A stretch of DNA of 64,000 bases from Chrysoperla carnea (lineage: Eukaryota > Arthropoda > Insecta > Neuroptera > Chrysopidae). The position numbers and the translations under genes were made by a program. The notes under the pieces were generated by a model. The model made no database searches. It had not been told where the DNA came from and worked only from the letters and a program-made list of their open reading frames with translations. Shown in pieces: positions 11,901 to 63,200 of this stretch (the stretch's first letter is position 1; the number at the start of each line of letters is the position of its first letter). The DNA lies in the NCBI RefSeq assembly GCF_905475395.1, contig NC_058337.1:135615960-135679959 (forward strand), in the 5' to 3' direction.

Positions 11901-14900
11901 TGAAAATTTTATTCGATTAATTATATTACAAAGAAATGAAGAAAATAGATGATAGATTATTTATTATTGATGTTTGCAATGGTTTGTGACGATTTAAGAA
12001 CTTCTAAAAGAAATAGAAAAATTTATGGTTTTAAATTTTTCAATTTTGTTGATAAGGAAATAATATTTTTTATTTTAAGTTAGTCCAAGACTTTACCCAA
12101 TGGTAAAAAACGTTAAAATAATCCCCCAATCCAATTATATCCTTTTCTGTGTTCAGAAAAAGGTTGGAATTTAAAAAAAAGGTAAATTATTGTGAATTTT
12201 GCCAAAAAGACTGCTTAGAAACATTTGAAATTGAGTGCACAATACCCCCAAATATGGGGAATTGTGTCTTTCATCTATTTGCAAGTCAGTGGTGCTAGAT
12301 TTTTTTTACTAGAAACGGGAGAATGACATTCCCATATTTCTACCACTGGTTATCGTAATATTATTAACATGAAGGATCCTTAGCTCATAATGTCAAATTT
12401 CTAATTATTCTAAGCAGATGTTTTGGCAATATTCACAAAATATCCTTTTTAAGAGTTCACCCGGTATGAAAAAAATATGAGAAGTAAAAATCTAGCGATC
12501 GAATGACGTCGTTATGTTTATTGTGCGTCACATGTCGTGCACACCTTTCCTTTTTTAATAATGCATGTGTATACATTTAACATACAAAGCATCTATTGTT
12601 CGAAACTGACAATAACCTGACGGATACATCATACAGTGTAGTTGTTACCCACCGATACAGAATGAGTACATAGCTACACAGCCAACGAACATCGGACGTA
12701 CCATATATAAATTATATACTACATACTACATACTACGTATAACAGACAAAGCATCTATTATTTGAAACTGACAACACACTATACAACCCTTAACGAGTCA
12801 ACTCTAGTGGTGCGTCGGGCTGACACACACAATTTTTATTCAAAAGGAAGTTTTCCTGGCTATAAGAATATGTAGAAATTGTCATTATTTTAACGTTATC
12901 TACCATTTGATGAAGTCCTATTGTTTTAACTTGGACCATCCTGTATAACGCAGTTGCACACTCGATACTGTTAACGGAATATATCGGAAATTTATTTTGA
13001 ATAAAGAGTAGTAAAGTGAATTTAAAAATAATCTCTATAGAACCAAACGTTTTAAAATATCATCCAAAAATTATGATACTATTGTTTTCAGTTCTAAATG
13101 TTGGGTCTATTATTTAACCAGTAAATCCTGTGGGTGTTGGAATTTTATTATACTCAGAGATTATATTAAAATTTATTTGTATGATAAGAATAACGGTACA
13201 ATTGTTCAACAATGTTTATTATTGCACATTTTATTATTACACTCAAAAATTGTTAAAATTGAAATTAAATGTTATTGTTTTAAATAAATTTTTGGTTCAT
13301 TGTTGTATGGATTAGTAATAGAATTTTAATAACTCGTATGGTATGTTTAAAAATAATTCAAATCATGGCCGTTATTCATTTTGGGGATTTTAATTCTCTC
13401 TCCATTATCAAACAAACATTTTTGTATGATAAAATTTCTTTACCTGTAAAAATTTAATAGCAAATGCCACTGAGATAATGCAAGGATTCTAACGATACTC
13501 CATATATTCGAATCTGTTCAGGAATTTAGAAGTTATGATGCTATAAAGAAACTCACATACATAGATGATTGCATTCGAGGGACCGTTCTGTGGAACACTT
13601 TTTAATCTAAGAGGTAATCTGTCATGAAAATTTTCTCTACCTGTAAAAGTTTAATAGCAAGTGTCACTTGAGGTAATGCAAGGATTTTAACGATACCCCA
13701 TACATTTGAATCTGTTCAGAAATTTAGAAGTTATGGTGACATAAAGAAACACACATAAATAGATAATTGCATTTGAGAGACCGTTCTGTGGAACACTTTT
13801 TAATGTAATAGATCCCCTGACTGTCTTGACAATTTTCTCTACTTGTAAAACTTTAAAAACAAGTGTCACTTGAGATAATGCAAGGATTCTAACAAGACCC
13901 CATATATTCGAATCTGTAGAGGAATTTAGAATTTATGATGGAAAAATGAAACACACATACATAATTTCATTATCCTCCTTTGGCTATTCGAGCAATAATT
14001 ATCATAGTTTGCATCTTTCATGAAAATAAGATGAAAATACAAAATTTATATTATGTTGACATGAACTTTTTGGATTCTTTCGATGCAAGAAATTCACTTT
14101 TTGTTTGAGTATTTTTGAACTATCCCATTGTAATGATTTGGTTTTGATGACACAACTTTGTATGGTATTAAGTTTTATCGCTCGGACAGAAAAATGAAGT
14201 TGGTTTTTGGAAATCTTTAGAAGTACGCAAAATATGATCGTTTAAAATTCCTAATTAAAAAAAGAGGAAGATATAGGTTAGGGACTTCATTATCCGATAT
14301 CAACATAGAGATACATATAAAATATATATAAAACTTTGTTTTGCTAAAAGGAGATAGACGACAATCTTTGAATGCTTATAACTTCTTGGTTTTTTAATCA
14401 ATTTTAATTTCACTTTCAAATTTTGTCATGGTATCAAGTTTTACATTTTTATGCGTAATATGGCAAACTTGGTATCAGGAAAATACCATATTGCCATTGT
14501 AGGCGAAGAACCGTTCTGTGGAACACTTTTTTTAAGAGTATGTTTCAAATATCCACGTGCCCGTAACCACGAGCTTGTAGGTCAAATCTATTTTTAACAA
14601 ACGTGTTAAATTTTTGCATTAAAAAATTAACCGTAAAAAAAATTGAACCCCACAAATTAACTTGAAGCAAAATTTCATAAAACGCCTACCTATTTTATTA
14701 TATTGTAAGTGCAAAAATTTTAATTTGTCAATAATTTTTTACATCGATTATATCAAATAAAATAGAATACACCTATTGAATAGCGTTTGTTATTTTGTTA
14801 TTAGGTGTAACCGTGGAATGAAGTTCGATTACTTTTTTATAATAATTAATATGGTTAATAAAAAATTACTGTTATATTAAGTTTTTATTTGCCTTGCAGC

Positions 14901-34227: not shown

Positions 34228-35050
34228 AGCGGCAATTCGGATGCAGCAGCAGTCAGCAATTTGTTTTCTTAAGTAATATTTTTTTTTTAATTTTAGGTTT
34301 TTGTATACTTAAATAACGTAATATTAAAATTACAGACATACTAAAACACTTTTAAAAGGATTATTACCTGTACATTTTAGGATTATTACCTGTACATTTC
34401 CAAACGCAACCACCACCGCCAGCCAGATGGTCCAAACTCTAACTGAAAGAGCATGAAGAACAACATATCATAAAATCAGCAATAATAAAATTCTTGTTCT
34501 GCTGACGGTTGCGAGCTCCTGTACCAATCTTAGGTGTTTTAATAACTTCTCTAAAAAAAAAAAAAAAAACTATCATTAAAACATTAAAAAAAACAAAAAA
34601 ACAATGTTAATTTGTATTTATGAAAAAAAAAAACTAAAACTAAATGAATATTGTAAATTGGGCTTCGTTCTCTTTATATAGTTGTAGCTGAATAGTGAAA
34701 AATTTCATTAGATTCATATACTACTTGTATTTAAATGAAAAAAGAAAATGAGAAAATAAATACAATCTTTTACAATGTGATTTTTTATTTCTTTTATACT
34801 CAAACATTTTAACTTAAGTGGCGAGCAAAATCAATCTTGGTATTAAATCTAAGCAGTGTTGGATTTGATGAAGATGGCGCCATATTGTCAAGGCTTCGCA
34901 AGACGCCTTTTTTTGTAACGAAATATAAATATATATACAGGGTGTACCATTTTAATCTATTATGATTAATTGCTTATTTTGTAGATAACCAATAAAAAAA
35001 TAACTTGCATAACAAAACCAAACAAAAGTTGAATGAGTTTGATGGATTTA

Positions 35051-35376
35051 TTATTCATCGTATTCGTCGTCGTTGTCTAAGTTCTGTGGCTTCGGTTTCA
35101 GGCGAATAATGCTATTATCATTTCCAGTAGTAGTTTCCAGATTGATATCTGGTTGCCCAGGAATTGTGCTACCAAGATCAGAAGATCCATTACTTATTTC
35201 GTTCCCAGATACATGCTGATTAGTCTCATCAGGACCTCCTCCACTGATATTAACAGTACCCATCTTCTCTATATCTTTAACATTATTAGTCTGGCCATCT
35301 TTATCTTTAACTTTATCTTCTTTTTCTTCCGTATCTTTCTCCTCTTTACCTTTTGACGGCTCAGTCACTTTCCACA
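35051..35376 (-). CDS. Exon 5 (terminal) of the K/E-rich secreted protein
   Basis: The acceptor TTGTTGCAG precedes TGTGGAAAGTGACTGAG. Entry phase 1 gives VWKVTEPSKGKEEKDTEEKE, then a unique tail with GGGPDETNQHVSGNE and PQNLDNDDEYDE before TAA at 35,051-35,053. AATAAA overlaps the end of the stop region (AATAATAAATCC). Confidence 0.65.
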
Positions 35377-36341
35377 CTGCAACAAACTCTCTTTAAATTG
35401 TGTTTTATGACAATTTTAAAATGCAAACCTTTTTCATCTGCATCTATGTTGACGGTACTATTTTCCTCTGTATCTTTAACATTATTAGTCTGACCATCTT
35501 TATCTTTAACCTTAGTATAATCTTTTTTTTCTTCCGTATCTTTCTCCTCTTTACCTTTTGACGGCTCAGTCACTTTCCCTACTGCAACAAAATCTCTTTT
35601 AGTTGTGTTTTAATGAAAATTTTAAAATACAAACCTTTTTCATCTGCACCTGAGTTGACAGTATCCGTTCTCTCTGTAACTTTCACATTATTAGTTTTAT
35701 CATCTTTATCTTGAACCTTACCTTCTTCTTCTGTATCTTTCTCCTCAGTCATTTCCCCTTCTGCAACAAAAATTCTTTTAACTGTGTTTTGTTTGTTCCC
35801 ACTTTTTAAATTTAAAATTTTGTTTTGATTTAGCTTTTGTTTTAAATCATATATGAATTTTTAAATAAAAAATTTTACCTGTAGAGATTGACTGACAGAT
35901 TTTTTGTATAAGATTGTATGTCTTAAGATTAATACATTTCTTTTTATTATTATTATTAGTCTGGCCATCTTTATATTTATCGTCATTCCTATCTTTTTGT
36001 TCTTCTGCGTCTTTATCCTCTTTATCTTTTGGCGGATTGGTCGCTTCCCTTTCTGCAACAAAAACTTTTTAAATTGTGTTTTAATGATTATATATTTTAA
36101 AATACAAACTCCTTTTTATCTATATCTTTTGAAGGGTCAATCACTTCCCCTTTTGCAATAGAAACTCTTTTAATTTTGCTCAAATGATAATATTAAAGTA
36201 CGAACCTGTTTCATCTGCACCTGAGTTGTCAGTAACCGTTTCTTCTGTAACTTTTAAATCTTCAATTTTTGGCTTAAACGCTGAATAATTAAGACAAGCA
36301 TAAACTGATAATGCAAAAACTGTTATAGGTAATAAACACAT
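35051..36341 (-). CDS. Small secreted-type Lys/Glu/Asp-rich protein built from duplicated exons
   Basis: Coding exons in transcript order: 36,206-36,341; 35,879-36,052; 35,635-35,760; 35,429-35,581; 35,051-35,376. All internal junctions are phase 1 with GT/AG ends, giving about 304 aa. The ATG at 36,341 begins MCLLPITVFALSVYACLNYS, a signal peptide-like hydrophobic stretch. The rest is hydrophilic and probably disordered. Exons 2-5 repeat the pattern VTEPSKGKEEKDTEEK, then K-DKDGQTNNVKDTE, then TVN--(G/A)ADEK. The last exon adds a Gly/Asn/Ser region and an acidic end (NDDEYDE). I recognise no family. Signal peptide plus fast-evolving exon repeats recall salivary or venom secretions of insects, but this is inference only. 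It lies tail-to-head about 1 kb downstream of ACE on the same strand. Confidence 0.65.
35429..35581 (-). CDS. Exon 4 (repeat unit) of the K/E-rich secreted protein
   Basis: 51 codons, phase 1-1, acceptor GTTGCAG, donor GTTTGC (weak). It encodes VGKVTEPSKGKEEKDTEEKK, a DYTKVKDKDGQTNNVKDTEE segment and NSTVNIDADEK. It is nearly identical to the first part of exon 5, showing recent duplication. Confidence 0.6.
35635..35760 (-). CDS. Exon 3 (repeat unit) of the K/E-rich secreted protein
   Basis: 42 codons, phase 1-1, acceptor GTTGCAG, donor GTTTGT. It encodes EGEMTEEKDTEEEGKVQDKD, then DKTNNVKVTERTDTVNSGAD and EK. The same pattern as exons 4 and 5, with the PSKGKEE segment deleted. Confidence 0.6.
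35879..36052 (-). CDS. Exon 2 (diverged repeat unit) of the K/E-rich secreted protein
   Basis: 58 codons, phase 1-1, acceptor GTTGCAG, donor GTAAAA. It begins EREATNPPKDKEDKDAEEQK and DRNDDKYKDGQTNNNNKKK like the other units, but continues into KCINLKTYNLIQKICQSIST before a different donor. The end therefore reads into what is intron in the sister units. It carries the only cysteines outside the signal region. Confidence 0.5.
36107..36156 (-). pseudogene. Decayed repeat exon within the first intron of the K/E-rich gene
   Basis: Between exon 1 and exon 2 lies another copy of the unit (GGGGAAGTGATTGACCCTTC then AAAAGATATAGATAAAAAGGA). Its acceptor has changed from GTTGCAG to ATTGCAA, most of the unit is deleted, and the GTTTGT donor is out of phase with its neighbours. 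Inclusion would shift the frame, so it is read as a dead exon. Confidence 0.55.
36206..36341 (-). CDS. Exon 1 of the K/E-rich secreted protein (signal peptide)
   Basis: 45 codons plus one base. It starts at ATG 36,341: MCLLPITVFALSVYACLNYS is hydrophobic, then AFKPKIEDLKVTEETVTDNS and GADET. The end (VT-E-TVTDNSGADE) resembles the end of exon 3, and the donor (CAG|GTTCGT) stands at the same place as in the repeat units. An upstream in-frame TTG is not taken as the start. Confidence 0.6.
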
Positions 36342-36974
36342 CTGGAAGTATTGTAAGTTTGTCCAAGAATAATTTCTCAATAACTACCGAAACACGATAA
36401 GAAATTCATAAAACTGATGATACTACCAATAACTTCATTGTGCTTGGTATAAAAAATCGGCCGTTAATTTTTATTTGGGATGTGGGAAGGTTGTTATTTA
36501 TACAATTTTTTTATTTTATTTGAAAGAATAATCTTTTTCTGGCGTTTACACATTGTTTTTTCAATGCTACATTTATATTATTACTTGTAATATAAGTTTT
36601 TATAATTTTTTTTTTTTTGGTTTTGAATAACAGTTTTATGTCAAACAATTAAATTTATTTTTTAGTAATTAAAATTAATATTGTACTCGGAAAATAAAAT
36701 TAGTTAAACATCTATTAAAATTATTATTAATAATAATTAATTAAAAATATAAAAATAAATTGTGAAGGTCGAAATTTTTGGAATATACTTTTTGGAAAAT
36801 GTGAACTTAAATACGAAGTGCATTTTTAATTGAAGGAAAAATCAACAGGCGAAGGGAATCAGAAAACGGATTGGGACCATGCCCACTAACTTCTTTAATA
36901 TAAAATTGCATTTATAGACAAAAAATTCCAGTAGCTTGAATGGTGCTGTTCTCCAATAGGAGACAGATCTTTGC

Positions 36975-37346: not shown

Positions 37347-40300
37347 CTAAAATTAATTAAAAAAATTCCATTAAATTATTGATTTTTTGTCTTTTTTATT
37401 TTGGATACATACCAAAAGATTTGTTGGAATGTGTCCATCCGACATGTACACCATTCTCTTTGTTCTTGTTTTCAATATAATCTAAGATTGGTTTGAAATA
37501 TTCTAATAAACCACTTGCATCCATTTTTCGTTGCCCAGTAATGGCTTCCATTGCATCAGGCCATGGTTTCGATGAACCCAATTGAAGCATATTTCTAATA
37601 AAAATGTATACATTAAAAATTTGCTCATTTTTATACGAATTCTAAATAAATTGGAAGTTTTTAATGTAGTAAGAGCCAATTACAAGCTTTTATTTATTTT
37701 TACTGCTCCGTTATTAGTTCTTTTCTACTTTTTAGTACAATAAAAGCTTATGTGTGTGTGACATATATGTATGTATGACTATCGAAGAGTGGCCGAAGAG
37801 TGGCTATCTTTCTTTACTTACATGACATAAAAAAACAAATGATTCCGTAATCAACACATTCTATACATGGTATTTCAACAATTAACTTAGTCAATTATTT
37901 GCTTTCACTTGTTTTTTTGATAAGATGTGATACGCAAGGCTGATATTGGAGAGATAAAATATTGGATTATAAGACAAACTTTGTTTAAACTTACTTCAAT
38001 AGTTTTCCAGCTTCTGTATTTTGATAAATATCACATTGGTGTAACTGCTTGGTTGGATCGTTGGGGACATATTGACCAGATTTCTGGCATACAGCTTTAT
38101 GGAATTGGAATTGAATTACAAAACTTACAAAGTATCTGCGAAAATAGAAATTGATTATATTCGAGGTGATCTTGTACCTATTTGTAAAATGGTAAGTAGC
38201 CTGGCATTCTAAATTGCAACTACTGAAAACGGGCCCACTTTCTGCTTTGATTAGTACGAATTATTAGCGCCAGTTGGCGAGTTGCAAGTTTCAGTTATTA
38301 ATTGTCAATTCAAACATTATTATTAAGTAAGACATCTCATAATAATATTCACTTCGAAGGAGCTACAACACTTAAGTAAATTTCTTGCATGGAGGATAAA
38401 AATGAATTTACCTGATATAAGGAACATCAGCAACAACATGATATTTAGCGCCTGCATCAAAACCATCAGAACTTCGATTGACTGGAGGTTCAATTCCTTG
38501 GTAATTTTCACGTAGTTTCCACCATTCACAATTATAATTTTCTGGTTTAATTAAACCTTTAAATATATTCCACCGGAATTGATCAACAGTGTAGGCGAAC
38601 GGTAAGAATACAATTTTATCTAATGCCGTACTATATAAATGATTCAAATCTGATTCATAATCATCTTCTTGAGATTTGAGTAAACCAATTTTACGTAGAT
38701 GTTTTTGGGTTGACACAGACAATGATATTGTGTCCCCAACAGCTTCATGGAATCCTAAAAAAACATTAACGATTTTGTGCAATAAATCGGTATACAAATA
38801 TCCATTAAATAATTCTATTTCAGAATTATTTTGACTAGGAGATCTTTTTGAGACTCTCAACAACCGAAAACCGAAGAAACAAACATGCTTTTAGTACTAG
38901 TATATTATTTCCATGTTAATTAAAAATTTAATAATATCTGAAGTTCGTACATCCTACTTCCTCAGGCCACTGCTCACGGGGTGTTAGTTACTTCTTAGCT
39001 GTTCAAGCTGTTTCGACATTTGTTTACATTTATTGATTTTTGATCATGAGACGCCATGGATATTCGTCGCTTTTTGTATAAAAAAAACCACACATTGATA
39101 TTATCGAAACCGGATTTCAATAATTTTTTATTTTAATCAAACAGAAAATCATGATCCTGGCGAGTCTATCGAATTGGCTGTTGATGCGAAATATATTTTG
39201 ATTGAAAGAAGAGGAAACGTTGGAGAAGAGTTCGGGAAAATGTTCAAAGCCGTGAGCGAAATCTGTGATGAAATCGACATGGAATTGCGCAAATCGAATG
39301 TACAGACTGATTCATTTGATGATTATTTCCGAATCACAATCTAAATACAGCTTTGTATGTAGATTGTTTCTGATACATTTACAAAATCATCGCAATATCT
39401 TATCAAATTTTGCTTGTCTCTTTCCCAACAAAATGCAAAATTTTGATGAATTCTTGCGCTTTGTAACTTTTCGAACCATACTCTTCAATTTTTCTCGATG
39501 ATTTCCGTGAAATCTGGGTCGACAAAGTTAAACTAAGACGAAAACGCATTGCCGAACAGGACTCAAAACTTCATTCAAAACACTCGATATTTGCAATGTT
39601 TCACAAATACTTCGCGTTCTGGCAGTTACAACAATATCGACGAATGAACGCATAAACTATTCGTCGTTTCAAAATATATCTTATATCGACAATATCTGAA
39701 GAGAACGACAATGTCTGAAGAAATCGACAATTCGCAGAATTTTTCTTGCCTTTATTTACTTTATGGCTTAAAATGGTGAACAAAAGTTTGTTCTCCCTAG
39801 GATGATTCCTGCACACGGGTCTACCTATTCTCTATTTTCCTAATTCTTTAATTCTACATAGACAATTACATAATCATATGACGAAATTGTAATATTTCCC
39901 ATTAATTCTTCATAATTTCTGTGAGTTACGTTCTTTTAAAAATCTAAACTCTAATAGGAAAATTAACGCTATGTGCTCCCATAACCAAGATTGAGAAATA
40001 ATATTCCCAACGTGTGCTAATTACTTGGGCCACCGAATATTAGTGTAATTACCACTTAATTTATTAAAATATTAATAGTATTAAGTTTTTTTTTGACACA
40101 AATTGTTTACCGGAATTAGCTCCACGTCTAAATTTAATTGGCAAATGTTTATACTGTAGGTAATAGTGAACATGTCCCATTTCATGGTGGACAGTAAAAA
40201 AATCTTGTTGATTTACGGCCGTACACATCTTAATCCTATAAATATATTTAAAAAAAATAAAAATAAATAAATATTAAAAATCTCACCCTCATTAGCCCCC

Positions 40301-43300
40301 TCCCGATAAATAATTGGATGATGTTTGTATGCTAAATCGTATTGAATGTGTCCCATTTCATGATGAACAGTGAAAAAGTCCTCAATATCCACTGTTGTAC
40401 ACTGTTTAATCCTATAAATTATTTGTCAAACCTCAAAATTATTAATTTTGCGCTTCTGTTCACACATACATTGTTGAGCGATTGTCTAGCAAGTTTGAAA
40501 TTTCTATCATCACAAGAGTAATGATTCTGGTACGAAAGACAACCGGTCTGAAGGGTTAAGCATTTGGCGCAAGAAGATATTGATTCATGTTAAAAATTGC
40601 TCAACATTGTATGTAAGTATGGATATGGCTTAAGGTTGATCGGACAGTACCTTTCAATTTTACTGTACACTCTAAATCTTTTTTAAAATCAGAAAATTTT
40701 AATCTGTAAATTAATTATTTAAATCGGTTATTTGGTTATTTAAATAAGTTGGTTCCGTCAGTAGCGTTTATACCAAGATTGAGTCCAGAAATGCTACAAC
40801 CGGTTTTGATCTTAACCGAAATTGATTTTCAGTGATGAGACAGAGACAGAACCGACATATTTAGCGTTTCGGACTAGTTAAGTCCCCCCTCCCCCACTAC
40901 CATAACCGGCGATCTTACATCGAATATAATATTTTTGGAATTATTGTTGATCAAAGCCGGTTCTTCCAATTCTCTAATCAGTTCAACCTTATGATAGACT
41001 CTACATCTTTCTCAATCTATTAGAGCTAAAGCCCCCTTTGAGAACGTTGAGTAGGCTTACTGCTAAGGACTAACTGGCTAACACCTATGAAACTTGAAAC
41101 AGAATTTCTGTAATAACTCATTAAGGTAGTACCTACACGAAAGTGATATTCCAAGAATTTCTCAAAACTCAGAATATAAAATATTTAATTCATAATACAC
41201 TTGCTGTTAAAATTAGAAGATGATTTACCATGCCATTCATGAGATATTAGCAATTAAAAGTGACGCAATTTGTACGTGTACATGGGAGAAGTGTATAAAA
41301 ATACACAAATTTACAAATATTATATTTATTTACCAATGAATGACGTCCAACATCTCTATGAAAAACTAATATAATGTAGAATACTACATTTAGAAAATAT
41401 ATAAATAAAAATAAAAATTATTTACCATATAGTTTCGATAAAAAACTTAAATAAATAACTCGTTTTAGCGATGATTTTTGTGGAAAGCATATAAAAACTA
41501 ATGGTAAAGGTTTGTATCAAAGTATGTGTGTGTATACGAATAGAAGATATAATTGTGTGTAACTACAGTCTGTTGAAAATAATATATTGTATATGTATAA
41601 TAGTCATAGCACAGTTAACGCACTGAATGATAGTATTAGTCCAAAACTTTTTGACTGGACGGTCGCGGAGGAACTACCTTAAAACTGTTCTTGGCCGCAG
41701 GTCAATATGAATCAGCCATTAATAACATTTAATAAATTCGGATTTTTATTTATACATTGCCTTAATGTCCCATCAACCTTAATATTTGCAAATAAACAAA
41801 TTAGTTGGGAAATGTCTAGAAAAAACTGAGCTTTGTCATAATCAGTTTTTCGTTACTTTTGTGGTTATATGCCCTAACAACTCGTCACGCTGAAAAGAAA
41901 TCTGAAAGAAGTCCAAAAAATGCGCTAGGAAAATATTTTCCTTTAGAAAATACAAAATACAGTAGAATCTCGATAAGTTAAACCTCGGTAACATAAAAAC
42001 CTTAGTTACTTCAAAAAATACTACGTTCCCTTCCCATCAGAGCCCAAAACCTCTATAGCTTAAAATACGCAACCTCTATAACTTAAATAAATAATTTCTG
42101 TTAGGCCCTCAGTAACTAAAAGAAATGTTTCCACAACCTCTATAACATAAAATTGTGTGAATGAGTCATTTTGAAAGAGTGTTAAAACAAATGGTTTCGA
42201 TATTTATTGCTTGCTTTATTGCTTATATCATTTATAGAGCAGTGTAGCAACATAGAAGATAATGTATTCTCCTCTCTATTTGTCATTGAAAATCAAATCG
42301 ATTTAGAAACAGTGAATTTTTTAAAACAAAAGAAAATCACAGATTTTTATAAGTAGACTAAACCTTTAGTTGTTGTTTTATTTTTATGTAATGTAAGTAA
42401 TGTGAATAAATATGATTACATATGTATTTAATTTTCAGTATTTTATTGAACCCATCCTTCTGATGCATTCAATAACATAGACCCTTGATAACTAAAAACC
42501 TCTATAACTTAAAATATTTTTTGTTTCCCTTGGACTTTAACTTATCGAGATTCTACTGTAGTTGAAGCCAATTGAAATGTGGCCATTTATAGAACTCCCC
42601 TGTTATGTTTACCTAAAATCTTTTCCATCACTCATATCCCAAGCCGATGCATGGCAAACTAGTTCGCGGCCTTCTGGTTTCTGAAGTATTGAATTCTTCC
42701 AAAATGTGTCAGGCATTGGGCTTAAATTGATTGATTTAAAGAATTCTTCAGCACTTTCAAACATTTTAATTGGAGTATAACCTTGTTTAACCATTTCTTG
42801 TGTAACATCTTCTGGTGTTTTGTTGGGGAATGGTAAAGTTCGTTTTGCTATATTTGACCAAGTTTGTGCCCACATGTTACCTTAAAAAAATTTACAGGAT
42901 ATAATTTTATGAGGGATATTTTGGCTGAGAAATTTTTGCACTAATTTTGCTGTAGTAAAGTGATGTTTTCGCTTACCCAATAAATGAGCAGGTATAGGTG
43001 CTGTACTTGAAACAACACTTTCGCCATATATCTTTTGAAGTTCATTTCGTACAAAAGCATGAATTTGTAAATAGGCTGGCTTAATTTGTTGCCATAAATC
43101 TTCGAATTGTTGCACAATATCCTCAGTTTCATAATTGTCCAACCAGAATGCACCATTGTCAGCGAAATCTAAAAGCAAATTGATCATATTAAAATCTTTT
43201 AAAACTTAATTAATTACGAAAACCGTTCGAAGTTAGTCTTCCGTGATAATACTAAAGTACTTTAGTATTAGCAATGAAAGTTTAGGCTCCAAGAAAGGGT

Positions 43301-44817
43301 CTAGTTTACGGAACTTACTGTTCAAACGTGCAGCTTCGTTGACTAAATTCACGTATTCTTTGAATAATGCTTTAGATTTATCCCCAGAATTTTTACGCCA
43401 TTCAACCCATGCATGTTTCAATTCTTCTGCATTATTTGACGTTGACAAGATATGTGTAATTTCTGGTTCTAAACTAAGATTGCATTTTTCAGGATTTTTA
43501 AAATCACAAATTTTTGCTTTGGCATAAATTTCTTCCATTGAAGCTATCGCTTTGGTTAATTGTTCATATTTGTCACTTGATAAGGCAGCGGTGCCAAGAA
43601 TTGAATATTTGGAAAATTGTCGTTTAACATCCGGATCTTTAAATGTTTTCCATGCATATTTTTGTACGTCTTGCCATTGATCTTTGAAGAACTTTGCTCC
43701 TTCACTACTTACTGCTAGCTAAAATTAAATAAATTTTTAGATATCTATACTTCTAACAAAAAAAGTTTCACGGAAATTTATAGTTAAGCAAAAATTACTA
43801 CTCAAATCAGGGATGATATTATTCTGGATAGGGACAAGATTTCAAACGAAGACTACAAGTCCCAGAATTAATATCGAATGATAACATCGAGCCAAGCATG
43901 TATGGCAAGTCTTCGCTCAAGTATGAGTGTCAGGATCCTGGCCCAAATCTGATTTAATTTATAAAAATCAACAATTAACTCAGGCAGAGGCAAATTATTT
44001 TCCGTCAGGCAGACACCACTAAAATAAAGATTCGTTATCTTAGGAGGAGAGACATGCAAACTTTCCAAAAAAATTTTGAAAGGAAATGAAACATATATAA
44101 TTATTTTCCGAGAGGTTTAACATTTTTTATCAGTTATTTATCAATAGATAACTGAAAAGATAATCTTGGATTGAAATTTAATCTACAAAATGACTGATTG
44201 TTTCCAACTTAAATAATAAATTAAAAATTTAAAGAAACTCCCGTCAAAAAATCAGGTCTGATCGAATAGTCAGTAACATCGTAGTTACTAAACGGATGAA
44301 CCGTTTTTGATTTTTTTTTTTTTTTTTGAAAAGTAATTTGTTCGAGTGTGTTCTTTCTTAACTGTTCCTCAGCCATTTGACGATCATCACCTCCTTTTTT
44401 AGTTGTTATCGGATGCGGAAGCCTAAACTCTTACTTGAAACATAGCTAAAAACACTCTTGAGCAAATTAGCTTTTAAAAAAAATCGGCTCATTCGTTTTG
44501 AAGCTGCAATGTCACAGACAAACACGCAGATATACAGAAGCACACAGAAATTTTGCATACAAAATATTTATTCTTGCAGATAAAAAAAAACTATTTTTTG
44601 ATTCAAGTTAATAAATACATACTTTCGTTGCTAAATTTTCATCGGTAATATTTGATGCATATGCCCATTCAGCCAACGATATTTTATTTCTCCAAAGTAA
44701 TGTATCACGATTCGCTTGCTCCAAGAATTGTTTACCATGTTCTTCATCGTAGTCTAATACATTGTTTGTTGAACATAATTTTGATAAAATTAAAATTGAT
44801 AATGTTGGTAACCACAT
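37321..44817 (-). CDS. Ance: Angiotensin-converting enzyme, single-domain (peptidyl-dipeptidase A, M2), with duplicated active-site exon
   Basis: Nine-exon coding sequence, minus strand: 44,623-44,817; 43,319-43,718; 42,977-43,168; 42,613-42,880; 40,287-40,411 (5A) or 40,111-40,235 (5B); 38,412-38,754; 37,995-38,135; 37,413-37,594; 37,321-37,346. All phases agree; product 623 aa, normal for insect ACE. A zinc dipeptidyl carboxypeptidase of the M2 family that removes C-terminal dipeptides from peptides. Visible landmarks: hydrophobic start [48 protein letters not shown] (His353 region of human testis ACE); [14 protein letters not shown] with the third zinc ligand; [30 protein letters not shown] keeping Lys511, His513, Tyr520, Arg522, Tyr523. 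No C-terminal membrane anchor, so secreted. Transposons sit in the introns on both sides of exon 5. Gene symbol is by family (fly Ance); orthology is not proven. Confidence 0.95.
37413..37594 (-). CDS. Ance: ACE exon 8
   Basis: 182 bases, phase 2 in, phase 1 out (TTTG|GTATGT). It encodes [40 protein letters not shown] and [12 protein letters not shown]. If the intron were retained the frame would end GMYPK and stop, an alternative C-terminus of the same length class. Confidence 0.9.
37740..37920 (+). repeat. Truncated family B repeat in ACE intron 7
   Basis: The distal part of family B (TATGTGTGTGTGACATATAT, GTAATCAACAC, ATGGTATTTCAACAATTAAC, TTTCACTTGTTTTTT) without its GGTCCGTAGGACC half. 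Antisense to ACE. Confidence 0.55.
37995..38135 (-). CDS. Ance: ACE exon 7
   Basis: 141 bases, phase 2 in and out (acceptor TTCGCAG, donor TTGAA|GTAAGT). It encodes [40 protein letters not shown] and EAGKLL. This matches the IIQFQFHEALC...C-IY-S-EAG block of ACE; Glu of FHEALC is Lys here. Confidence 0.95.
38412..38754 (-). CDS. Ance: ACE exon 6 (third zinc ligand and catalytic pocket)
   Basis: 343 bases, phase 1 in, phase 2 out (ATCAG|GTAAAT). It begins [20 protein letters not shown] (third zinc ligand Glu in HEAVGD) and includes [40 protein letters not shown] and [17 protein letters not shown]. Works with either exon 5 alternative. Confidence 0.95.
39052..39500 (+). pseudogene. Decayed hAT-type (ZMYM1/52-kDa-repressor-like) transposase fragment
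   Basis: Plus-strand reading gives [12 protein letters not shown] at 39,057 and, after frameshifts, [40 protein letters not shown] and, in another frame, [19 protein letters not shown]. The helix-rich pattern with FG..F....EIC.E..IE.RK resembles hAT-derived transposase proteins from memory. Stops and frameshifts interrupt it. It lies antisense in ACE intron 5. Confidence 0.5.
40111..40235 (-). CDS. Ance: ACE exon 5B: active-site exon, second alternative
   Basis: 125 bases with the same phases as 5A; acceptor TTTATAG|GATTAA, donor TCCG|GTAAAC. It encodes [31 protein letters not shown] and [10 protein letters not shown], 27 of 41 residues identical to 5A. HEMGH is intact and no stop or frameshift is present, so it looks functional. 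The 391-equivalent is Tyr and the 403-equivalent Arg, as in the N domain of mammalian ACE. Confidence 0.85.
40287..40411 (-). CDS. Ance: ACE exon 5A: active-site exon, first alternative
   Basis: 125 bases, phase 2 in, phase 1 out; acceptor TTTATAG|GATTAA, donor GAGG|GTGAGA. It encodes [31 protein letters not shown] and [10 protein letters not shown]. It carries both zinc histidines and the catalytic Glu of HEMGH. The residue equivalent to 391 of human testis ACE is Asp (usually Phe/Tyr) and 403 is Glu. Mutually exclusive with 5B by frame. Confidence 0.9.
41960..42558. mobile_element. pogo/Tigger-like MITE in ACE intron 4
   Basis: Ends CAGTAGAATCTCGATAAGTT and its inverse (AACTTATCGAGATTCTACTG), flanked by TA at 41,958-41,959 and 42,559-42,560. 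599 bp, with repeated CCTCTATAACTTAAA inside. Terminal sequence and TA duplication fit pogo/Tigger. It ends only 54 bases from the exon 4 donor. Confidence 0.75.
42613..42880 (-). CDS. Ance: ACE exon 4
   Basis: 268 bases, phase 1 in, phase 2 out (AG|GTAAAC). It encodes [58 protein letters not shown] and KDF plus two bases of Arg. Contains the CHASAW active-site segment. The next exon must start with one base completing Arg, as both 5A and 5B do. Confidence 0.95.
42977..43168 (-). CDS. Ance: ACE exon 3
   Basis: 192 bases, phase 1 in and out (acceptor GCTTTTAG, donor TTGG|GTAAGC). It encodes [20 protein letters not shown], the [18 protein letters not shown] helix and PIPAHLLG. The position equivalent to Arg186 of human testis ACE (chloride site 1) appears to be Leu (FWLDNYE). 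Confidence 0.9.
43247..43270. repeat. 24-bp perfect palindrome in ACE intron 2
   Basis: TAATACTAAAGT followed directly by its inverse, 43 bases downstream of the exon 2 donor on the transcribed strand. Intron 2 is only 150 bases, so an RNA hairpin here would sit close to both splice sites. Function unknown. Confidence 0.7.
43319..43718 (-). CDS. Ance: ACE exon 2
   Basis: 400 bases, phase 0 in (acceptor AATTTTAG), phase 1 out (AACA|GTAAGT). It encodes [20 protein letters not shown] through [20 protein letters not shown] and [20 protein letters not shown] to NEAARLN. The CxxxxxxC region with EPE and W-EWR is typical of ACE. Confidence 0.95.
44280..44530 (-). repeat. Family A repeat, copy 2, in ACE intron 1
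   Basis: Inverse-orientation copy of the 5,401-5,680 repeat, recognisable by CTTGAAACATAGCTAAAAAC, ACTCTTGAGC and GGCTCATTCGTTTTGAAGC. Diverged. Confidence 0.5.
44623..44817 (-). CDS. Ance: ACE exon 1 (signal peptide and N-terminal helices)
   Basis: ATG at 44,817, 65 codons, donor AAA|GTATGT, phase 0. It encodes a signal peptide-like [19 protein letters not shown], then [20 protein letters not shown] and [16 protein letters not shown], the ACE lid helices. Confidence 0.9.
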
Positions 44818-45699: not shown

Positions 45700-46119
45700 T
45701 CTTGTATATTAAAACGAGCAATTCTTGTATATATATATATATCAACGATCTTGGAAATGGCTCCAACGATTTTTATGAAAATGAGTATGCAGGGGTTTTT
45801 TGGGGCGAAAAGTCGATCTAGCAAGGTTTCATTTTTAAAAAACGTCGTTTTATCCCACTTTTCATGAAAAACTGAAACCGGCAATGCAAATTATAACTCT
45901 TCCTGACATCTATTGGTGTATATCGTAGTTAATGAAATACAATGCAAATTATAACTCTTCCTGACATCTATTGGTGTATATCGTAGTTAATGAAATAAAA
46001 TACATTACCGGGACATTCAAATTGGTATTTGTGTGGAGACATTTAAAACGGTCTTCTATTAGTGATAAAATTTGTGTCTTTTTAAGAATACCGAGCAAAG
46101 CTCGGTCATCCAGATATTA
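45700..46119 (+). mobile_element. Dispersed repeat with GC-rich 3' hairpin
   Basis: Begins TCTTGTATATTAAAACGAGC, has ATGGCTCCAACGATTTTTAT and GGCGAAAAGTCGATCTAGC inside, and ends with the perfect hairpin CCGAGC-AAA-GCTCGG followed by TCATCCAGATATT. The hairpin end resembles rolling-circle or similar non-autonomous elements, but there is no CTRR end, so the class is open. A 58-base tandem duplication lies within. Confidence 0.5.
45883..45998. repeat. Recent 58-bp tandem duplication
   Basis: The block starting AATGCAAATTATAACTCTTC is repeated immediately at 45,941 with no mismatch except at the final bases. Very recent or an assembly artefact. Confidence 0.85.
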
Positions 46120-47624
46120 TTCAATAAAGCAGGAAATATTCGAAATAAAGACGTCTTAATATAAACTCGCGAAAGCATTACCAAGCTTTCGCATCATACC
46201 TATAAGCGGAATATTATAAATGAAAATGTTTTTCATGCTGATATGCCGATCTTAGCTCGACTATCAATTAAAAACTATACAAATTGTAACTATTAATTTC
46301 TACTACACAAGCATGTAATCTATGTAATTATTTAATTTTTTATTTGTGATATTAAAAGTGTGTCGTGGATTTTCATATGGAGGCGGGAGGTTATTACTTA
46401 TAGTTCAAGAAAATTAGGAATTTGTTATTCAACGGTTTTCATTCAATTCTAAAACGAGCAGTTTCTCAACAGAAAACTTGTACATTTTTAATTAAAAAAT
46501 ATATACTTTCGTTACCTGTGCTCTCACAGCATCTTTCTAATTATTTATAAATGTATTGATTTTCGCCAATTTTTAGGATTTCATTGCTAATATTTTAAAT
46601 ATCTATTATTAAAAAAATGAAATTATCCCAGTAAAACCCTCAATATGGTTTTTTAAGCCCTTTTCGTACATATATGAGTATCTTAAAATTAGAGAAACTT
46701 TGAACATTTTTAGACTATATTAAACATATTTGTGTAAAAAAATTGCCTATATTTATAATCTTATTGAGGGTTGAGGTTTTAGCCCTTGTTGAGGGTTGTG
46801 TGATCAATAAATACACTTATATTGATAATAGAGGATGGGTCCCGAAGAATATGGGTCAAGATAGTCCTTTTTAAAATTAAAAACCTCCAACTTTGCGTTG
46901 AGAAATTATTAATTTCAGAATTTAACGTACTAAATGTCTACTTTGCTTGGACTATACTATTAAAGTTTATTTAATTCATTTATTACTAGAAACTCTTTTT
47001 GGTAGTTCGAATCATTTAATTTTACGTAAAAAATACGCACTTCCTGTTACATCCTCTAATATCTAATGCACACAGTTTAATCCATTTCGAACGTTATCAT
47101 ATTCTATTAAAATCATATGAAATAATTCTATGAAAATTAAGCTTCAAAATAGGCAAAATGGTTATAACACACTGGTCTATAGCTAAAAAACATATTTAAT
47201 AAATAACTGTTGAGACTGTATACGGTATGCGTTCTTTATGTCCTAGCTGCCAGCTTGTTTTGTTAGCGATGAAAAACTGCGATTTTCCTTTGTTTCTAAC
47301 TTAAAATATATATTATATTATTTTATCTATAAAAATGTTATAAACAAATGTTGGGTACATTTGTAGAAAAAAGTACAAATAAAAATGTTATTACTATTGT
47401 TATTATTATGTTACTAGAGCGATTTTAAAGTACTTAATTGGTACCGATAATTAAAAAAAAAGTATATTAATTGATATTAATCAATTTATCAACACGAGGA
47501 AATAAAATTAAATAATTGAATAATTTTATATTATTGCCTCAAACTATTGGCTATGATATAATTTTATGTTATTACCTCAAATAGTATTTTGCAACTTTCA
47601 ATTACTTCAGTTCGAAATTAAAAA

Positions 47625-48230
47625 TTCAATTTTTTTGATAACACATTCAAATTTGATCCGATATGATTGGAATTTTTTTTTGAAATCTACTAATTTTGGA
47701 TCATACTTTTTAGTTGTAATATCAGTTTTTCGCTAGCTATCACTTATGTGCTTAATTCCGAGAGCAGGACTCCATTATTCTTGAAACCTATTAGAGCTAG
47801 GTTAATTTTGATCACAAATTTGAAAAGTGTGACCCAAATTTAGTAGGATTACATACTTGGTTTATCAAAATTGGATAAAATTTGGATATGATAGAGCAAA
47901 ATTAAATTTTTTGGATTCTGGTGACGTCATAAAGTTAAAAAATTCGATTTTTTGATAACACAGGCAAATGTGATCCGACCTGATTGGAGTTTTTTTTGAA
48001 ACCCACTAATTTTGGGTCGTTCTTTTCAGCTGTGATAACAGTTTTTTGCTAGCTATCACTTATGTGCTTAATTCCGAGAGCAGGACTCCATATTCTTGAA
48101 ACCTATTAGAGCTTGGTTAATTTTGATCCCAAATTTGAAAAGTGTGACCCAAATTTAGTAGGATTACATACTTGATTTATCAAAATTGAATAAAATTTGG
48201 ATGTGATAGAGCAAAATTCATTCTTATTTT
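47625..48230. repeat. Tandem repeat, about 317-bp unit, two copies
   Basis: Units start near TGATCCGA at 47,654 and 47,971. Shared blocks: CTATCACTTATGTGCTTAAT, TCCGAGAGCAGGACTCCA, CCCAAATTTAGTAGGATTAC and GATAGAGCAAAATT. The two differ by a few percent. A related, more diverged array occurs at 62,290-63,200. Confidence 0.75.
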
Positions 48231-58985: not shown

Positions 58986-59212
58986 AGTTATAAATAACCC
59001 GTCTTTTTGGTTTGGGGGTTAAATATGCAAATATGTGTTTGCTTCCTTGTGATTTGAATACTTGATCCTGAATTTTGGTGAAAATTTTGAAAAATCTTCG
59101 AGAAATATAATATGAATTTGAAATCGATTTTTCGAAAATTACATCATACGCCAATGCCATTCTCATAGACATAATGTAAGTTGATTTACTTAAAGAGAAT
59201 TAAAAAAAATAC

Positions 59213-59283
59213 ACTCGAACCAGGACACGAACCCGGACTTCTTGGATTCATGTCAAGCGCCCTACCAATTAGGCTATTCGAGT
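59213..59283 (-). tRNA. tRNA-like cloverleaf, probably a tRNA pseudogene or tRNA-derived element
   Basis: 71 bases fold as a cloverleaf: acceptor ACTCGAA/TTCGAGT perfect 7 bp; D arm GCCT/GGGC with AATTGGTA loop; anticodon stem CTTGA/CCAAG with one A-C mismatch; T arm CCGGG/CCTGG around TTCGTGT. Position 33 is A where nearly all tRNAs have U, so an anticodon cannot be read safely. A T run downstream (TATTTTTTTTAA) could terminate Pol III. A partial copy with its flank lies at 59,487-59,531. Confidence 0.45.
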
Positions 59284-62289: not shown

Positions 62290-63200
62290 TTTTTTATTTT
62301 CATCCAATTTAAATGAATTTTTTTTGAAACCTACTAATTTAGAGTCATATTTTTCATGTTAATTATTCGCTAACATTAATACTTGCACAAAATGTGGAGC
62401 CAATGATAGTGTATTTATGAAATTTGTTGAAGATATGTTAAATTTGATGAAAAATTTGAAAAATATGGCCCAATACACTACGAACATTGATACTACGAGC
62501 AAAATTTTGTCTGTCTTTCAATCTGTGTCCGTCTGACAACACGATAACTCAATATTAAAAATACGAATACGCCTTAAATAAATAAATAAATGAAATTAAG
62601 GAAGGTATAAGGAAGGTAGAAATTAAGATTACACTGAATTAGTTGCAATCGACATCGTGTGTCATGCGGTATCTTTTCCTGAAAAGCAACGTATGTGGGT
62701 TAAATTGACCCCGTTCGTTGATTTCCGGTAAAGAATTTTCGCGGGATGAGAGGAAAAATGATTTGGACATGTGGGACTACATAAATTAGTGGGACTACAT
62801 GTTTGGTCTATAAAAATTGCATAAAATTTGGGCGTGATAGAGCAAAATCAAATTTTTTGGATTTTGATTACGTCATAGAGTATAAAAAACATTTTTTTGA
62901 TATTTTGGCCAAATGTTATTCAATTTGAATGAATTTTTTTTTGAAACTTGTCAATTTAGGGTCATATTTTCCATTTTTCATATTAGTTATTCGCTTGTAC
63001 AATTTGTGAAACTCATAATGGTGTATTTATGAAATTTGTTTAAGATATGTTAAATTTGACGTAAGATTTGAAAAATATGACCCAAAATTAGTGGGATTAC
63101 ATGACGTAGTGTATTTATGAAATTTGTTGAAGCTATGTTAAATTTCATGAGAGGTTTGAAAAATATAACCCAAAATTAGTGGGATTACATAACGTTTTCT
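62290..63200. repeat. Diverged tandem array related to 47,625-48,230
   Basis: Repeated blocks TGAAATTTGTTGAAG-TATG, TTAAATTTGATGA, GAAAAATATGACCCAAAATT and AGTGGGATTACAT occur three to four times, with GATAGAGCAAAATCAAATTT as in the 47.6-kb array. Non-coding. Confidence 0.6.

Follow-up and report, generated by a model that had tools for sequence, protein, structure and literature searches.

Two candidate mutually exclusive active-site exons in an angiotensin-converting enzyme gene of the lacewing Chrysoperla carnea

The window analyzed here is a 64,000-nt stretch of DNA from the lacewing Chrysoperla carnea (Neuroptera, Chrysopidae; assembly GCF_905475395.1, contig NC_058337.1, positions 135,615,960 to 135,679,959). 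It contains a complete angiotensin-converting enzyme (ACE) gene on the minus strand, running from 44817 to 37321, which was rebuilt from open stretches and splice sites. The gene has nine exon positions, and position 5 is present twice, as exons 5A and 5B (Table 1). The 5A-containing product has 623 residues and agrees at every position with the NCBI protein 'angiotensin-converting enzyme-like [Chrysoperla carnea]' (P0001 in our protein set). Similarity to the peptidase M2 family (PF01401) is full-length for both isoforms (E about 1e-212 to AnCE chains), and PF01401 is precomputed on P0001, which equals isoform A. The lacewing protein is alike in domain and motifs to Drosophila AnCE and other single-domain insect ACEs, matching AnCE chains over residues 24-614 at about 711 bits. 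The zinc signature is complete, with HHEMGH in 5A and in 5B and the downstream Glu ligand in GFHEAVGD of exon 6. The motifs MWAQ, HASAW, GAKxH and PYIRY, the substrate anchors of a dipeptidyl carboxypeptidase, all lie in shared exons. A tblastn search with six ACE proteins found no ACE exon other than exon 5 duplicated in the window, which rules out that 5B is a piece of a second ACE gene.

Exons 5A and 5B stand in tandem, 125 nt each, and both begin with the third base of a split codon and end with the first base of another. An earlier note, made from this DNA alone, had described two adjacent, open 125-base exons (phase 2 in, phase 1 out), each with an intact HHEMGH, 27 of 41 residues identical, and carrying two zinc ligands and the catalytic Glu. 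All of this was borne out, on the minus strand, with the third ligand in exon 6; at the nucleotide level the two share 82 of 125 positions. The further claim that either exon joins exons 4 and 6 in frame also held. Four exon choices were tried, and just two of them, 5A alone and 5B alone, gave an open product, each from a 1872-nt coding sequence with a single terminal stop and each 623 residues long. Inclusion of both exons led to a frameshift and a stop seven residues past 5A, and omission of both to a frameshift and a stop two residues past the exon 4-6 junction codon.

Exon 5B is matched by the lacewing protein at E=1.7e-14 (tblastn), and a chance resemblance to exon 5 is excluded. A collapsed haplotype or assembly artefact was ruled out, because the copies differ at 43 of 125 nt. 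The proportion of synonymous differences between the exons is saturated (pS 0.82) and that of nonsynonymous differences is low (pN 0.23), with pN below pS in 2000 of 2000 codon bootstraps; the comparison is pairwise and averages both branches. The pair has evolved under protein-level constraint, and with low nonsynonymous and saturated synonymous divergence neither copy looks like a relic.

A similar exchange is annotated in Anabrus simplex (Orthoptera, Tettigoniidae), for which NCBI holds three isoforms of 645 residues each. Isoforms X1 and X2, compared at the protein level, show 12 differences, all within the stretch homologous to exon 5, and 0 of 604 elsewhere. As annotated, the exon-5 stretch is swapped between isoforms in an insect of another order. 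Isoform X3 (P0031) differs from X1 at 16 positions, all at residues 272-301, where it reads EMWASTW in place of NMWAQSW; the Gln lost there is the substrate-carboxylate anchor (Gln281 of tACE). The enzyme may thus have another exclusive-exon site in this region. A second exon 4 copy, at which the X3 alternative might hint, was sought in the lacewing window with the same six proteins, and none was found.

Among Lepidoptera, orthologs of the Bombyx gene P0222 carry two exon-5 types, A and B, picked by eye from screened pairs with alike flanks and unlike exon 5. The screens used whole-protein 10-mer overlap (9 rows listed) and 283 exon motifs (106 pairs passing, 30 listed). Species pairs of opposite type concentrate their differences in exon 5: Achroia/Galleria (14/41 vs 35/567 outside, p=5e-7), Ostrinia/Loxostege (14/41 vs 29/541, p=1e-7) and Choristoneura/Cydia (14/41 vs 74/597). 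Where both species have the same type, this excess is absent (Galleria/Aphomia 4/41 vs 45/561; Diatraea/Loxostege 6/41 vs 50/594), and in Plutella/Euphydryas exon 5 is identical (0/41 vs 94/601). Trees were built from six type A and eight type B rows (O. furnacalis omitted) plus 20 hand-picked other rows each. In a quick-method tree of the protein outside exon 5, Achroia joins Galleria, Choristoneura joins Cydia, and Ostrinia joins Loxostege, all on starred branches, whereas in the exon-5 tree each lepidopteran type forms one side of a single branch. Five changes of exon type are needed on the rest-of-gene tree, four of them forced by starred branches, vs one on the exon-5 tree. The simplest account would be that the lepidopteran gene has both exons, annotation showing now one and now the other. 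To judge from these proteins, a swap of ACE exon 5 is apparently common to three insect orders.

The swapped exon covers part of the substrate pocket. Papers are cited here by PubMed Central number, and most, including all those cited for the pocket, for the excerpts available. PMC12025037 names polar pocket residues of ACE and lists in its Table 3 eleven pocket positions that differ among AnCE, the human C-domain and the human N-domain. The S2 (391, 403) and S1' (376, 379, 380) positions of that table all fall within exon 5 (tACE numbering). Exon 5A encodes Glu376, Phe379, Thr380, Asp391 and Glu403, and 5B encodes Gln376, Phe379, Thr380, Tyr391 and Arg403. Anabrus X1 has Phe391/Glu403, the C-domain pair, and X2 has Tyr391/Arg403, the N-domain pair. 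Lepidopteran type A carries Phe391 in 5/6 and Asp403 in 6/6, and type B carries Tyr391 in 8/8, its residue 403 being Glu, Ala or Asn. All 'b' exons examined share Tyr391, and the 'a' exons of each of the three lineages have an acidic residue at 403.

Exon 5A has Asp391, Ala393 and Glu407 together, a triple otherwise characteristic of vertebrate ACE2; with P0001 excluded, 44 of 58 ACE2 (collectrin-bearing) motifs contain it, against 2 of 232 other motifs. A monocarboxypeptidase role for 5A, which these ACE2-like residues might suggest, was not adopted, since the shared exon keeps MWAQ, a site at which ACE2 has Arg.

The earlier note had called the acceptors near-identical and the donors good. 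TTTATAG/GATTAA is common to both acceptors, but the match is restricted to the last bases and the pyrimidine tracts differ. The 22 nt before the acceptor contain 10 pyrimidines in 5A and 15 in 5B, compared with 13-15 at the remaining seven acceptors. Of the nine tracts tabulated, that of 5A is the poorest, as would suit a regulated exon. The donors were as described (GTGAGA for 5A, GTAAAC for 5B and also for exon 4). The intron between 5A and 5B is only 51 nt long (shortest constitutive intron of the gene, 66 nt, from exon coordinates). Branch-point-like adenines in YTNAY matches lie 13, 19, 23 and 29 nt from the 5A donor, and a fifth match at 48 is 3 nt from the 3' end. A steric limit of about 50 nt has been proposed for U1/U2 assembly (PMC7969005), and with an intron of 51 nt any branch point, here predicted by motif, lies under about 50 nt from the donor, a limit not set in insects. 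OGDH exons 4a/4b and alpha-tropomyosin, in which a short intervening intron places the branch point less than about 50 nt from the donor before it (PMC7969005), resemble the lacewing pair in the shortness of that intron; that threshold comes from vertebrate and viral introns, whereas the lacewing intron is 51 nt in all and its branch points are by motif only. Two layers of exclusivity are visible: frame, with a stop when both or neither exon is included, and, as a hypothesis, the geometry of the 51-nt intron. Competing RNA pairing gave nothing above shuffles in seven intron pairs, with 300 nt or the whole 51-nt intron scanned on each side (for every pair, 3 or more of 20 shuffles paired as strongly), a comparison of one genome with little power, and long-range pairing as the choice mechanism was set aside on that result.

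Each exon alone keeps the frame and both or neither give a premature stop; taken with the constraint on the pair, the Anabrus swap and the conflict between lepidopteran types and tree, this points to 5A and 5B being mutually exclusive alternatives of one ACE gene that retune its substrate pocket, a reading to which we give a probability of roughly 75%. The earlier suggestion of probable mutually exclusive splicing is thereby supported. We hypothesize that the 51-nt intron would be too short for 5A-5B splicing, that products with both or neither exon would be removed by nonsense-mediated decay, and that cells would choose between the pyrimidine-poor 5A acceptor and the U-rich 5B acceptor. Both isoforms would be active dipeptidyl carboxypeptidases, because the substrate-anchoring residues lie in shared exons. 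The swap may then retune S2 and part of the S1' pocket, 5B being N-domain-like (Tyr391/Arg403) and 5A acidic (Asp391/Glu403).

Several points weigh against this reading. The public proteins comprised 276 retrieved sequences, listed as the best 120 of 7392 matches, all 105 matches to the 5B region and 120 of 330 in a third list; rows are cluster representatives, and isoforms inside a cluster are invisible. The sole C. carnea ACE protein listed uses 5A, and a 5B form, expected on top of the best 120 of 7392, was not there. Neither a lacewing 5B form nor a close relative of 5B was found among all 105 matches to the 5B region, the best of which by identity reaches 80% over 74% of the region. In the retrieved set no lepidopteran species has both types in the P0222-type gene, and the argument is one from cross-species pairs. 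The lepidopteran types break the Tyr/Arg rule at 403, and the Bombyx type A exon has Tyr391. Insects may splice introns near 50 nt, and the steric limit of about 50 nt is a vertebrate figure. As to the pocket, Table 3 of PMC12025037 covers only residues that differ, PMC3875237 assigns position 380 to S2', and Thr496, on the S2/S1 border (PMC3875237), is outside exon 5. Exons 5A and 5B differ at three of the five subsite positions, no more than expected with 14 of 41 residues differing (P=0.21), and an enrichment of subsite positions among the lacewing differences was dropped as not significant. Both exons also sit at the low edge of their family in profile score, and the trees leave the origin of the pair undecided, as described below.

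A separate origin of the pair in the lacewing, with the orthopteran and lepidopteran cases as independent duplications, is possible if rather doubtful, and would be compatible with mutually exclusive splicing, since it concerns origin only. In its favor, approximately unbiased (AU) tests do not reject a 5A+5B clade (p 0.45), the two lepidopteran types together (p 0.42) or the Anabrus pair (p 0.18). The exon tree has 41 columns and an unsettled bootstrap, AU rejects none of the five groupings of common or separate origin (p 0.18-0.59), and the lacewing gene's position in the rest-of-gene tree is without resolution and carries a long-branch warning. Among the tabulated positions only 403 tracks the lacewing types exactly in Anabrus. 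Against convergence, 56 lacewing-Lepidoptera quartets (7 type A x 8 type B) gave 133 sites grouping by type, 14 by species and 0 cross, although the quartets share sequences and are not independent. Type residues common to the lacewing and Lepidoptera are Gln/Met at 369, Ile/Val at 388 (except Eumeta) and, in part, Asp/Asn at 374. Anabrus X1 falls among termite and stick-insect exons in the exon tree (96/85, starred) and not with X2, which groups with 5B, thrips and Agrilus (91/82, open); forcing the Anabrus pair together costs 12.3 log-likelihood units. The exon tree was dropped as proof of shared origin, the AU tests being undecided. A shared old origin of the exon pair still seems likely. 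More tentatively, it is possible that two mutually exclusive active-site exons were present in the ACE gene of the neopteran ancestor, one coding for a C-domain-like S2 pocket (Phe/Asp391, acidic 403) and one N-domain-like (Tyr391, often Arg403).

Exclusive splicing could also yield functionally equal isoforms, a redundant pair or one that serves regulation only. The catalytic and anchoring motifs are common to both isoforms and the subsite differences are not over-represented in the lacewing, as would be expected on such an account. Both S2 positions nevertheless change between 5A and 5B, with the charge reversed at 403 (Glu/Arg), and the same two positions change in Anabrus, where X1 and X2 differ at four of five subsite positions (P=0.02, a weak enrichment). 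In the human N-domain the Tyr/Arg pair touches RXP407, an N-selective inhibitor, at its P2 group, and the corresponding Tyr/Arg to Phe/Glu double mutant shows a 250-fold loss of affinity for the S2-directed inhibitor 33RE, which is related to RXP407 (PMC3875237). We regard equal isoforms as unlikely.

Less likely again is that 5B is an unused relic, left behind when the exon was duplicated and 5A took over, and no longer spliced. Consistent with a relic, only the 5A form was seen among the public proteins listed. For comparison with the family, a profile was built from 86 distinct insect exon-5 sequences, obtained from 94 single-domain rows (P0017-P0120) by merging duplicates, excluding 5A and dropping rows that do not end in G, and the 86 were scored on the profile built from themselves. 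On this profile 5B scored 92.7 bits and 5A 89.7, in a family range of 92.3-110.4; 5A is below 86/86 and 5B above only 1/86. Exon 5B nonetheless matches 19 of 19 near-invariant columns, 5A matching 18 of 19, and outscores 5A; if anything, the unannotated 5B appears to be the more ordinary of the two. In neutral-decay simulations (20,000 each), splice dinucleotides, frame and HExxH were all kept in just 0.05% with all 43 changes placed on one copy and in 2.6% with 22. The better pyrimidine tract of 5B and the swap annotated in Anabrus likewise argue against a relic. A poison-exon switch, in which 5A-5B joining or double skipping lowers ACE output and the choice of sequence is secondary, fits the early stops of both arrangements and is very improbable, as it has no need to keep a catalytic motif, the pair is constrained at the protein level, and 5A-5B splicing would need the 51-nt intron.

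Mutually exclusive exons are a known kind of arrangement, and a swappable ACE catalytic exon is a form that we found nowhere described. As the earlier note had stated, insects normally diversify ACE by gene duplication; the available text of PMC1325048 describes an Anopheles tandem cluster, the double-domain AnoACE9 and alternative first exons in AnoACE3, and in that text not alternative active-site exons. Aphid ACE3 has an intron-retention form (PMC4351530, in part). Mammalian somatic ACE is alike in having two active sites per gene, which differ in S2 at Tyr369/Phe391 and Arg381/Glu403 (PMC3875237, PMC12025037), and the insect swap alters both positions. In the mammalian enzyme the whole domain is duplicated and both sites lie in one protein, whereas in the lacewing one 125-nt exon is duplicated, giving one site per protein. 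Helminth coq-2 (PMC7434440), PKM, CRMP and CG42249 (PMC7954323) are alike in that homologous exons, one per mRNA, alter a substrate, ligand or catalytic site; none of the four is a peptidase. One CRMP isoform loses a zinc ligand, whereas both lacewing copies keep the zinc site and only the surrounding pocket changes. PMC7954323, which surveys exclusive exons, gives nine events located at catalytic sites. By term count, the word beginnings 'angiotensin' and 'peptidase' are absent from the main text of PMC7954323, and both terms from the 15-insect study PMC3303723. No description of exclusive ACE exons was found among the literature matches listed, most subscription journals lying outside the search. 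Since NCBI already contains the Anabrus isoforms, the swap itself is on public record there, with no description among the same matches. The earlier note's statement that it knew of no described exon-level duplication of the ACE zinc site thus stands among those matches; rather than a novelty local to this lacewing, the evidence suggests an arrangement that is more widespread in insects and perhaps old.

Table 1. Features of the ACE gene in the window, in order of transcription (positions in the 64,000-nt window)
Feature	Position	Strand	Basis
ACE exon 1 (ATG start)	44623..44817	-	gene model; whole model = 623 residues identical to P0001
ACE exon 2	43319..43718	-	gene model
ACE exon 3	42977..43168	-	gene model
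ACE exon 4; phase 2 out; holds MWAQTW and CHASAWD	42613..42880	-	gene model
Exon 5A, candidate alternative active-site exon, residues 353-393; version in the public C. carnea protein; HEMGH codons 40348-40362	40287..40411	-	
5A codon, S2 position 391: Asp (GAT)	40336..40338	-	subsite from PMC12025037 (excerpt)
5A codon, S2 position 403: Glu (GAG)	40300..40302	-	subsite from PMC12025037 (excerpt)
Intron between 5A and 5B, 51 nt, 92% A+T	40236..40286	-	
Exon 5B, second candidate alternative active-site exon; length and phases as 5A; HEMGH codons 40172-40186	40111..40235	-	
5B codon, S2 position 391: Tyr (TAC), like human ACE N-domain Tyr369	40160..40162	-	PMC12025037, PMC3875237 (excerpts)
5B codon, S2 position 403: Arg (CGT), like human ACE N-domain Arg381	40124..40126	-	PMC12025037, PMC3875237 (excerpts)
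ACE exon 6; begins GFHEAVGD (third zinc ligand)	38412..38754	-	gene model
ACE exon 7	37995..38135	-	gene model
ACE exon 8	37413..37594	-	gene model
ACE exon 9 with stop codon	37321..37346	-	gene model

Within the ACE gene, intron 4, upstream of 5A, carries a 599-bp element (41960-42558) with 28-nt terminal inverted repeats (96% complementary) and TA on both sides, which we take to resemble a small pogo/Tigger-type transposon. Just downstream of the gene, at 34900-36400 on the minus strand, lie several similar K/E/D-rich open stretches (KGKEEKDTEEKKD, KDGQTNN), with repeats at about 35.05-35.39, 35.36-35.61, 35.58-35.86 and 35.85-36.07 kb and a possible signal-peptide exon before them, near 36.35 kb; this is perhaps a gene with tandemly duplicated exons. 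The window also holds tandem repeats at 47620-48218 (unit 315 nt), 13426-13963 (198 nt), 63021-63195 (88 nt) and 45882-46001 (58 nt), and a tRNA gene at 59212-59283 on the minus strand (49.8 bits, over the Rfam gathering score).

If 5A and 5B are spliced exclusively, a single gene could give rise to two enzymes that prefer different peptides. ACE is an intensively studied drug target whose two mammalian sites differ in few pocket residues, and a gene that swaps only the exon with several pocket residues, the rest constant, would be a natural mutagenesis experiment on ACE specificity. Work on insect ACE in reproduction, immunity and salivary effectors may then have measured isoform mixtures or one of two isoforms, and counts of ACE activities per insect genome would be too low. 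Should the exon pair date back to the neopteran ancestor, many annotated single-isoform insect ACEs would miss half of the enzyme repertoire, and insects would have done by one swappable exon what vertebrates did by whole-domain duplication.

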